This document shows positions 15,906 to 19,151 of a DNA stretch of 32,941 nt, piece by piece. Location: contig JAAUSZ010000022.1 of NCBI GenBank assembly GCA_012031875.1, forward strand, positions 1 through 32,941, read 5' to 3'. Every line of letters begins with the position of its first letter. Position 1 is the stretch's first letter. Both the position numbers and the translations under genes were made by a program. A model generated the notes under the pieces. The model made no database searches. It was not told the DNA's origin and saw only the letters and a list, made by a program, of their open reading frames with translations. This DNA comes from Desulfobacula sp. GTDB taxonomy: Bacteria > Desulfobacterota > Desulfobacteria > Desulfobacterales > Desulfobacteraceae.

Positions 15906-16869
15906 TCACTTTAATCGGATCAAACAGACCCGTATCTGTTTATCTTTAAGATTAAAGAGATCGCGAACATTATTCCCGGAAAAAAGACTCAACTTAATCT
16001 GCCCTGAAAGGAGGCATCCATCCTCCCCTTCAAAGGGATAATTCTGCCGGCCCGTATCACCTTTTGCAGCGGATATCAGTTGCTCAAAGACCTGTTGCCG
16101 CCACCCGGTTTTATTTTCACAATCATTTTCATGCACTTTTATCGGATCGATGTCAAGGGCATTTATTGCATCTGAAGAAATAGTCTCCAGATAATCCGCC
16201 ACAGCCTCACTGGTCGTCACAAACAAAGGGCTTTCACCGGCCGGCCGGAACCCGCCATGATGAATCATGCACCTTGACCAGGCTTCTATCCGCTCCCGGG
16301 TCATTACGGCGCCCGGGTCAGTGATGCCCTCCCCCCTGCCGGATGGGGCCATATTCTTCAAGCCCTCCTCTCCCAGAAGGGCGGAAAGCATTCGGCTCCC
16401 GGCGGTATCAATATTTTTAAGCTGAATATCAATGCTCTCATTTTCCAGGTCACACTGTCTGGCCATCCTTAAAAACAATAGATCCCGGAGCAAGATGTCC
16501 TTTCCTGTTTTTTCCGGTTTTTCCGCGGCCTCTCCCGCCCCCCTGATCTGTGATTTAATGGCCGTCAGATCGGAATCGCTGGTAAAATAGGGGTTATTCT
16601 TTAACAGACCCCTGAGATTATTCTCGTTTCCCCTATTCACCTTTACCCAGGCCATGTATTGCTCAAAGGAACGATCAACCGACGCCAGGTCCCGGGGGAT
16701 GATAAGATGGGAAGCACAGCCCCCTTATCGGCCAGGGCCTGCAAGGCCATATGGTGATTTAAATTCCCGGCTGCAGGAAAAAAGGAAAATGAGGGAAAAA
16801 AAGCCTGAAGCGCGGCAAGCTGATCCTGAGAAATATGCGAAAAGGGAAAAAAATAACAGGGGGCGTCAT
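15906..16869 (-). CDS. Unrecognised protein translationally coupled to cysK-cysS (two frame breaks)
   Basis: The ATG at 16869 shares ATGA with the stop of the CysK-CysRS-like gene. Three reading frames join into one protein of about 321 residues if one base is restored in each of two homopolymers: A7 on the plus strand (16847-16853) and G5 (16694-16698). The result begins MTPPVIFFPFSHISQDQL and continues LADKGAVLPILSSPRDLASV, then FEQYMAWVKVNRGNENNL. Later segments include NPYFTSDSDLTAIKSQIRG and a probable alpha-helical centre. An alternative without the first repair starts at ATG 16888 (MTKRWKHDAP). No signal peptide, membrane segment or catalytic motif was recognised. I do not know the family. 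Coupling to the upstream gene suggests a shared task. Confidence 0.65.
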
Positions 16870-19151
16870 GCTTCCACCTTTTTGTCATGAACATGAACAC
16901 CCAGGGCCGTCAACCTCTCCCTGATCTTGTCCGCCAGTTCAAAATCATTCTTATCCCTTGCCAGCTCCCTGTCTTTTATAAGTTCCCGGATATCCTGAGA
17001 ATGCTCGGCCAATTGATCGAAATTAAATATTCTTAAAACCGAATCCATCTCCCTGAAACACCCCAGAAGCTTTTGAGCGCTCTCAGGATCAATCCGGTTC
17101 TGATTGATCAGGCTGTTGATGGTCTTCACATTGGCCAGCAATGATGACACAACACCGGATATCTTCAGGTCGTCTTCCATGAATTTCAGGAAGGTGGCCC
17201 GGATATCGTAGATCAGCTGATCGATCTCTTCAAATACCCGGCCGGCCTGAATTGCATTCAGGGTTTCCAGACACCGGTTGATTTTATCCAAGGTATACCG
17301 GGCCTCTTTGAGGGACTGTTCAGACAGAAGAAGCACTTTCCGGTAATGATTGGAAATCAGCCAGAACCGGAGGGTTTTCATTTCCCATCCCCTGCTGCTG
17401 AGATATTCAAGGGTCAGGGCATCCATATCCGGCGCACCCAGTGACCCGTCATATTTCACCGGTGCGCAGTGGAGCCAGCTCCGTGCAAGAGTTGCTCCCT
17501 TGGCTGCTCTTGCAATGGCCACCTCGTTCTCATGATGAGGGAAAATCAGCTCCCGGCTGCCGGTCTGGATGTCAAATGCATTGCCCAGGTATTTCATGGC
17601 AATGGCCGCGCATTGAAGATGAAGAGAGGGGCGCACGTTTCCCCATTGGGTTTTGATCCCGACCCCTCTTTTCAGTTCTGAGAGCCGGACCCGCTTGAAC
17701 AGCGTGAAGTCCTTGGGATTAAGCTTTTCATACTCATCAAGATCAACGGTGGCGCCGGGTTTGATTTTCTCCAGGTCAATTCCGGAAAACTCCCCATACC
17801 CGGGCAGGCTTGAAATATCAAAATAAAGAGAGTGCAGCTTTTCATAGGAATGTTGACGGGATTGCAATTGATTTGCCACCTCTATCATGTCGTCAAAATG
17901 ATCCGATACCTTGGGATAGGCTTCCGCCTGACGGATATTGAGACTTTCGAGATCCTGGCGAAAAACATCAAGGTGCTTCTGCGTGAATCCGGGAAGGGTC
18001 ATCCCTGCCTGATGTGACCCCTGGATGGTTTTGTCGTCATAGTCCGTGATGTTCACGATATGGTTGACACTGATATTGTGATACTCGATATACCGGATGA
18101 GCAGGTCTGTAAAGGCGTACCGCCTGAGTTGGCCGATATTGAGCCTTTTGTGAACCGTGGGACCGCAGGTATAGACCGATACCTTCCCCTTTTCCAGGGG
18201 TTCAAAAGGCTGTTTTGATTTTGAGAATGAATTGAACAGGGATAAGGCGATACGGTTTTCCACGGAAAAAAGAGTTGTGGACAGATACCTTTCTCCGCTG
18301 TCGGGGAAAATGACCACCACCACACCGGTTTTTATCTTCCGGGCCTCTTGAATGGCCGCAGCCATGGCGGCCCCGCTGCTCATGCCGACGAAAATCCCCT
18401 CTTTGACGGCCAGCATCCGGGCCGTTTCAAAAGCGGTTTCATCATCAATATTTATTTTTTCGTCAATGAGGCTCTTATCCATGATTTCAGGCGTATAGGA
18501 TTCTTTCAGGTTTTTGAGGCCCTGAATCTTATGGCCCAGATAGGGTTCGGCACAGATGATCCGGATGTCCTTGTTATATTCCTTGAGTCTTCTGGAAAGC
18601 CCCATGAGGGTGCCGCTGGTGCCGATGGAGGCCACCAGGCTGGAAACCGAACCCCGGGTCTGGTCAATAATTTCAGGGCCCGTTGTATAATAATGGGCCT
18701 TCCAGTTGGCATCATTATTATATTGATCCGTCAAAAAATATTTATCCGGATTTTCCCTGGCAAGCCTGTAGGCTTCTTCAATGGCCCCGTCAGACCCCAG
18801 ATGCCTGGGGGTGAGGATTATTCTTGCCCCCCTGGCCCGCAGAATTTTTTTTCGTTCCTCGCTGGCGTTTTCAGCCATGGCAAGGGCGATCTTATACCCT
18901 TTCACCGCGCAGATCATGGCCAGGCCGATGCCTGTGTTTCCGCTGGTGGCCTCAATCACGGTTTTGTCCCGTGTCAATTCCCCCGACTTTTCCGCTTCCG
19001 TGATCATATACAGGGCGGCCCTGTCTTTGACGGACCCGCCCGGATTCATATATTCAAGCTTGGCAAAAATCCGGACCCCTTCCACGGGATTCATCTTGGT
19101 GATCTCTACAAGGGGGGTCTTGCCGATGCAATCTAAAATTGAAAATGTCAT
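16866..19151 (-). CDS. Cysteine synthase fused to a degenerate cysteinyl-tRNA synthetase
   Basis: This is one uninterrupted 761-residue frame. Residues 1-300 form a CysK-type PLP enzyme, which makes cysteine from O-acetylserine and sulfide: SVKDR with the PLP Lys 42, the TSGNTG loop (69-74), GTSGTL (177-182) and SSGAA. Residues about 320-755 align with CysRS from CGPTV (329-333) to the C-terminal helices (ARDKNDFELADKIRERL). The zinc and cysteine ligands are all kept: C329, C514, H539, E543, at E. coli spacing. The catalytic motifs are eroded: HIGH/HIGN is NIGQ (338-341) and KMSKS is KYDGS (566-570); GWHIECS is SLHLQCA. Aminoacylation is therefore doubtful. It may bind the product cysteine as a sensor or channel. 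It overlaps the next gene by 4 bases. Confidence 0.88.
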   Translation of the reverse strand: MTFSILDCIGKTPLVEITKMNPVEGVRIFAKLEYMNPGGSVKDRAALYMITEAEKSGELTRDKTVIEATSGNTGIGLAMICAVKGYKIALAMAENASEERKKILRARGARIILTPRHLGSDGAIEEAYRLARENPDKYFLTDQYNNDANWKAHYYTTGPEIIDQTRGSVSSLVASIGTSGTLMGLSRRLKEYNKDIRIICAEPYLGHKIQGLKNLKESYTPEIMDKSLIDEKINIDDETAFETARMLAVKEGIFVGMSSGAAMAAAIQEARKIKTGVVVVIFPDSGERYLSTTLFSVENRIALSLFNSFSKSKQPFEPLEKGKVSVYTCGPTVHKRLNIGQLRRYAFTDLLIRYIEYHNISVNHIVNITDYDDKTIQGSHQAGMTLPGFTQKHLDVFRQDLESLNIRQAEAYPKVSDHFDDMIEVANQLQSRQHSYEKLHSLYFDISSLPGYGEFSGIDLEKIKPGATVDLDEYEKLNPKDFTLFKRVRLSELKRGVGIKTQWGNVRPSLHLQCAAIAMKYLGNAFDIQTGSRELIFPHHENEVAIARAAKGATLARSWLHCAPVKYDGSLGAPDMDALTLEYLSSRGWEMKTLRFWLISNHYRKVLLLSEQSLKEARYTLDKINRCLETLNAIQAGRVFEEIDQLIYDIRATFLKFMEDDLKISGVVSSLLANVKTINSLINQNRIDPESAQKLLGCFREMDSVLRIFNFDQLAEHSQDIRELIKDRELARDKNDFELADKIRERLTALGVHVHDKKVEA

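Follow-up and report, generated by a model that had tools for sequence, protein, structure and literature searches.

A cysteine synthase fused to a CysRS-like pseudo-synthetase in Desulfobacula and its relatives, a possible reader of tRNA-Cys

Non-charging modules derived from aminoacyl-tRNA synthetases are tied to amino-acid supply in HisZ and in the HisRS-like domain of GCN2, both of which descend from class II HisRS. We describe here a gene in which a cysteine synthase is followed by a module that is, by sequence and predicted fold, a relative of the class I cysteinyl-tRNA synthetase (CysRS), covalently attached to the biosynthetic enzyme itself. The gene lies in a 32,941-nucleotide window, by which we mean the whole stretch of DNA analyzed: forward-strand positions 1 to 32,941 of contig JAAUSZ010000022.1 in Desulfobacula sp. 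assembly GCA_012031875.1. Among other systems inviting comparison, MshC has no anticodon domain, and the SepRS-SepCysE-SepCysS transsulfursome has folds unrelated to those of the fusion. HisZ is a non-charging module serving amino-acid supply (PMC9437257); the transsulfursome, like the fusion, links O-phosphoserine with tRNA-Cys (PMC5688128), using three proteins and a tRNA-bound substrate where the fusion has one chain; MshC, also a CysRS paralogue, ligates cysteine with ATP (PMC9437257), whereas the fusion has lost the ATP site; and CysRS*, a CysRS paralogue from the same order, Desulfobacterales (PMC7609411), charges its tRNA and has no anticodon-binding domain (PMC9437257, PMC7609411), the reverse of the fusion. 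Neither paralogue identity fits the CysRS-like half, since the window protein contains an anticodon-binding domain and scores 150.4 bits with the MshC profile TIGR03447 against a cut-off of 485.1. Compared with CysRS proper (class I; E. coli 1U0B/1LI5), the fusion lacks HIGH, KMSKS and the equivalents of Q241 and W184, stands behind a cysteine synthase and forms its own clade. With CysM and O-phosphoserine sulfhydrylase (2BHS, 3DKI) it shares the pyridoxal 5'-phosphate (PLP) lysine and a basic residue at the R210 position, to which it adds a C-terminal half derived from a tRNA synthetase. A literature search of partial coverage, with subscription journals mostly outside it, found no description of a cysteine synthase/CysRS-like fusion.

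The fusion gene occupies positions 16866 to 19151 on the minus strand, as do all features given below. An earlier note, made from the sequence of the window, had proposed that one frame joins a cysteine-making enzyme to a synthetase-like part, and a single unbroken frame of 761 amino acids is indeed found there. Pfam places PALP at residues 6-284 (E 5.6e-73), tRNA-synt_1e at 316-618 (1.7e-65) and CysS_C at 718-758 (E 7e-5), and the AlphaFold2 model of the whole chain has a mean predicted local distance difference test score of 86.2. The synthase half spans residues 1-295 (18267..19151) and the CysRS-like half residues 303-758 (16878..18245). The fusion is neither a chance event nor an assembly joint: 55 full-length fusions can be aligned over their whole extent, a number that includes the window's own and some nearly identical records, and one of the 55 (L045) sits on a complete Desulfopila chromosome. 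The first half was rightly taken for a cysteine synthase, since it scores 369.8 bits with TIGR01136 (cysKM; cut-off 344.15) and carries the PLP lysine; it is closer to CysM than to the CysK named in the note, as TIGR01138 (CysM) scores 377.3 bits, short of the CysM equivalog cut-off of 394.2, versus 329 for TIGR01139 (CysK).

The catalytic motifs of the CysRS-like half are lost. Aligned to E. coli CysRS (1LI5), the HIGH position at residues 338-341 (18129..18140; E. coli 37-40) reads NIGQ and the KMSKS position at residues 571-575 (17427..17441; E. coli 266-270) reads LGAPD. NIGQ and the loss of KMSKS had thus been correctly recognized, while KYDGS (566-570), formerly taken for the KMSKS site, lies five residues upstream of the true equivalent. 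All four zinc ligands are present in the window protein, as had been claimed: C329 (18165..18167; E. coli C28), C514 (17610..17612; C209), and H539 and E543 (H234, E238) within HHENE (17523..17537). The protein scores 304.4 bits with the NCBIfam cysS profile TIGR00435, below the cut-off of 340 that some other fusion members pass (e.g. 457 bits). For a wider comparison, 130 fusion frames from fetched loci, a subset of all fusions found, were reduced to 122 by removing repeats and set against 111 standalone CysRS from the host phylum and other phyla. One of the latter, L136, is a contig-edge piece of a fusion; it was dropped from invariant-column and motif counts (n=110) and retained in per-residue counts, the variability comparison and the quick tree. 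Two residues fixed in standalone CysRS, Q546 (E. coli Q241) and W485 (E. coli W184), occur in 0/122 fusions. HxG[HN] is found in seven of the 122 and K[MLI]S[KR]S in 13, and zinc ligands, HIGH and KMSKS occur together in only four (L170, L173, L047, L177) versus 95/110 standalone CysRS. Among the first 55 fusions the ligands hardly vary (C329 in 54, C514 and H539 in all 55, E543 in 51); they are looser in the wider set (C329 98/122, C514 103/122, H539 122/122, E543 85/122), where 82 fusions keep all four and 40 lack at least one. The expectation that ligands would persist in relatives while HIGH and KMSKS do not is therefore borne out for the motifs, and for the ligands only in the first 55; their absence from relatives, which the earlier note had said would count against its reading, is seen in part. 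Zinc or cysteine binding as a common theme of the fusions is not supported: 17 members in four families (f98, f101, f128, f144) have lost the zinc-site cysteines and glutamate along with HIGH and KMSKS, and keep the histidine.

The side of the module expected to face tRNA shows a different pattern. Retention of the C-terminal anticodon side, another claim of the note, is confirmed by a PF23493 match of 23.3 bits (cut-off 23) and by the key residues R728, R732, D741, R744 and D756 of the domain at residues 716-758 (16878..17006). Four of these are present in all 122 fusions, and R732 (E. coli R427) is arginine in 120 and lysine in two; R427, D436 and D451 of E. coli CysRS presumably lie at the anticodon when tRNA is bound. 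The five anticodon-domain columns that are invariant in standalone CysRS (E. coli R423, A426, D436, R439, D451) are 99-100% kept across the fusions and fully kept in the 17 zinc-less ones, so that what had been suggested as perhaps a tRNA-binding side appears, by residue conservation, to be the constant feature. When columns invariant in 110 standalone CysRS are scored by region, the share kept in all 122 fusions and in the 17 zinc-less fusions, respectively, is 0.33 and 0.04 in the KMSKS region, 0.62 and 0.43 in the C part of the catalytic domain, 0.79 and 0.35 in its N part, 0.82 and 0.83 in CP1, 0.93 and 0.93 in the helical region, and 1.0 and 1.0 in the anticodon domain. Constants found only in the fusions (R344 in 120/122, R487 in 121/122, G496 in 122/122) suggest a new shared function. 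The family offers natural stages of a synthetase in decay: the ATP site goes, in some lineages the zinc site goes too, and the tRNA-side residues stay fixed.

In a quick tree of 67 fusions and 66 labelled standalone sequences, the fusions together with the L136 fragment split off by a branch with support of 100, and standalone cysS genes of fusion genomes group with other standalone genes. A careful tree of the CysRS-like halves, with 26 fusions and 23 standalone rows chosen partly by hand and partly at random, recovers the fusions as one clade with support 100/100; three long-branch fusions (L241, L244, L134) and, from the standalone set, L136 and L155 were left out. Given the single clades and the separate grouping of standalone genes, one origin of the fusion followed by stepwise decay of its CysRS half is the simplest reading. 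Mapped onto a tree built from 67 synthase halves, the presence of all four ligands changes no fewer than 10 times and that of KMSKS no fewer than six. Distances between pairs of fusions, computed for each half, show a correlation of 0.65, which fits joint travel, though loosely. Ratios of nonsynonymous to synonymous substitution (dN/dS) in six pairs of close relatives, rough values with several dS above 1, are 0.03-0.09 for the synthase half, 0.04-0.25 for CysRS-like parts apart from the KMSKS loop, and 0 to 0.39 for that 25-codon loop. As estimated from these substitutions, purifying selection is acting on both halves.

The synthase half retains the features of its enzyme class. The PLP lysine K42 is present in 122/122 fusions, the carboxylate loop reads TSGNTG at residues 69-74 with its core SGNTG invariant among fusions, and identity is 47% to E. 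coli CysM 2BHS over 290 aligned residues and 37% to M. tuberculosis CysM 3DKI over 296. K213, at the position of R210 in E. coli CysM, is lysine in 122/122 fusions, and the residue there reportedly contributes to the choice of O-phosphoserine in some microorganisms (PMC3805590). A census of 28 hand-chosen fusion genomes (TIGR01136 at 1e-40; strong cysE defined as E<1e-40) showed the fusion to be the sole TIGR01136 match in 12 (G400, G330, G500, G621, G509, G401, G339, G367, G405, G483, G316, G366), that of G367 lying in pieces. No convincing serine acetyltransferase was found in these 12 genomes, with no cysE match better than 2.9e-12. Strong cysE was present in 15 of the 28, and these same 15 are the genomes with a further CysK/M above the cut-off; the 13 without strong cysE are the 12 sole-match genomes and G427, whose second CysK/M match is below the cut-off. 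The contrast (15:0 versus 1:12) gives a Fisher p of 4e-7, which overstates independence among related genomes. The cysE model finds matches in 12 of 14 control genomes. From sole-CysK/M genomes without convincing cysE, and from K213, O-phosphoserine is somewhat favored as the substrate of the fused synthase, which becomes a concrete candidate for cysteine synthesis where no convincing serine acetyltransferase is found in the host phylum. GapMind reports Desulfovibrio vulgaris without a cysteine gap and leaves its serine route open (PMC7311316). Standalone CysM-type relatives in Acidobacteria, Phycisphaerae, Gemmatimonadetes and Dormiibacterota records (L050, L054, L055, L058, L065) carry a GLKH/GMKH-M...VPGIYD loop resembling the fusion's GLKN loop.

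We give an even chance to the fusion being a working cysteine synthase with a built-in reader of tRNA-Cys, which would fit cysteine synthesis to translational demand. The PLP half would make cysteine, probably from O-phosphoserine and sulfide, while the CysRS-derived module would no longer activate cysteine and would still hold tRNA-Cys. The ATP chemistry has gone, the zinc site has been lost repeatedly and the tRNA-side residues are fixed, which points to holding tRNA-Cys as the module's shared job; that it binds tRNA-Cys is probable. The tRNA read would most likely be uncharged, its free CCA end entering the emptied active site; passed to the PLP half, this reading would allow cysteine to be made when translation requires it, and such a gauge of tRNA-Cys charging, the simplest role for a module so placed, would raise or lower cysteine synthesis. 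Where the zinc site survives, the same pocket might in addition sense cysteine, either as the free amino acid or attached to tRNA. Control of the fused synthase by tRNA falls just short of an even chance, and the broadest form of the proposal, a phylum-wide O-phosphoserine-type synthase gated by the charging state of tRNA-Cys and serving as sole cysteine synthase in some lineages, is more tentative still. If true, it would provide a direct molecular wire from amino-acid supply to tRNA charging without a kinase, riboswitch or transcription factor, and it may couple cysteine production directly to tRNA-Cys in many sulfate-reducing bacteria and related organisms.

A module that senses cysteine rather than tRNA, its kept zinc site binding the free amino acid and switching off the synthase in the way that HisZ inhibits HisG in response to histidine, is unlikely. 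It would explain why most fusions keep the four ligands, nearly constant in the first 55, and why NITD and HHENE remain while ATP-site residues are lost, but the family persists without the zinc site in members that lack ligands, and the ligand state has changed repeatedly. The equivalent of E. coli W205, which we take to be a cysteine contact, is leucine in the window protein and in 31/122 fusions. HisZ remains the precedent for such a sensor (PMC9437257). The fusion presumably combines O-phosphoserine chemistry with a tRNA-Cys module, which also recalls the archaeal route with its use of O-phosphoserine and tRNA-Cys (PMC5688128), and the synthase could act on, or hand cysteine to, tRNA-Cys as a bacterial SepRS/SepCysS counterpart. 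We hold this to be improbable: the fusions keep the free-carboxylate loop SGNTG invariant, into which an esterified substrate should not fit, making direct synthesis on tRNA less likely.

Equally improbable is a weak or back-up CysRS working with altered motifs. Four near-canonical members and the zinc site kept in most fusions would suit it; against it stand the complete absence of Q546 and W485, the rarity of HxG[HN] (7/122) and KMS[KR]S (13/122), and matches to standalone cysS in 28/28 fusion genomes. With the motifs lost and standalone cysS present, a non-charging role is likely, as the earlier note had it, although cysteine binding as a trait shared by the family is not upheld. Cysteine persulfide synthase activity has been claimed for some CysRS, and sulfide-rich hosts and a PLP enzyme adjoining a cysteine site could hint at a persulfide-forming enzyme; no predictive feature of one was found, and family members can do without the zinc/cysteine site, which makes this the most remote of the alternatives. 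Several points also weigh against a synthase governed by tRNA-Cys. Residues of the anticodon domain may be kept for folding, and mean variability of that domain is 2.01 bits in fusions versus 1.82 in standalone CysRS, only key positions being fixed. The zinc site of the 82 fusions that keep it is needless for a pure tRNA reader, and the four near-canonical fusions, with zinc ligands, HxG[HN] and KMS[KR]S, might still charge tRNA. As to the substrate, the absence of cysE rests on one model, all of whose matches in the host phylum fall below the NCBIfam cut-off; a basic residue at the R210 place is no proof of O-phosphoserine use, as E. coli CysM has one; and for C. jejuni CysM O-phosphoserine was not a substrate (PMC9855970).

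Comparison of loci indicates that the fusion is a conserved family across the phylum. Full-length members occur throughout the Desulfobacterales. Genera named in the records that have the fusion are Desulfobacula, Desulfobacter, Desulfotignum, Desulfocapsa and Desulfopila. In a class sample of 291 genomes (hand count), 248 have matches stronger than 1e-240, 32 have none better than 1e-140, and the other 11, with values from 1e-150 to 1e-210, are split fusions, fragments or uncertain cases. A phylum sample has matches at E<=1e-150 in 156/395 genomes (142/327 among good genomes); standalone CysRS alone can score 2.5e-156 with the fusion profile, and the weakest of the 156 is 7.4e-180. Elsewhere the fusion was found in 2/146 genomes of a Myxococcota group (L265, L266, one with an in-frame TAG), perhaps through transfer or mis-binning, and in 0/148 of a Nitrospirota group. 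Genome G002 holds a second, diverged fusion (L134 592-2976, 47% identity) beside the orthologous one. A separate canonical cysS, which the earlier note had proposed looking for, is present in the window's own genome with HIGH and KMSKS (contig C191), and some of the standalone matches in the 28 genomes are fragments. A cysS match above the cut-off was obtained in 55 of 58 relatives, in G002 only via a fusion; G010 and G017, both incomplete, have a fusion without a standalone-type cysS match, and the standalone-type pieces of G022 do not reach the cut-off. Six genomes (G041, G036, G042, G053, G044, G048) have standalone cysS scoring about 429-447 bits versus about 550-607 in most genomes of the order, perhaps reflecting two types or a replacement.

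Downstream of the fusion lies a gene of unknown family (15906..16869), whose start overlaps the fusion stop by ATGA. The overlap had been read as coupling and is present, although here the gene is broken by two frame changes. Its homologue is intact (321 amino acids) beside a fusion 90% identical to the window's (L010). The canonical cysS on contig C191 (L007 7820-9252, genome G000) likewise occupies two frames, with the break near L007 8070; this adds to a picture suggestive of indel errors in the window's assembly. A homologue of the downstream gene is found at 58 of the 120 fusion loci that hold 900 bases downstream (repeats of some genomes counted).
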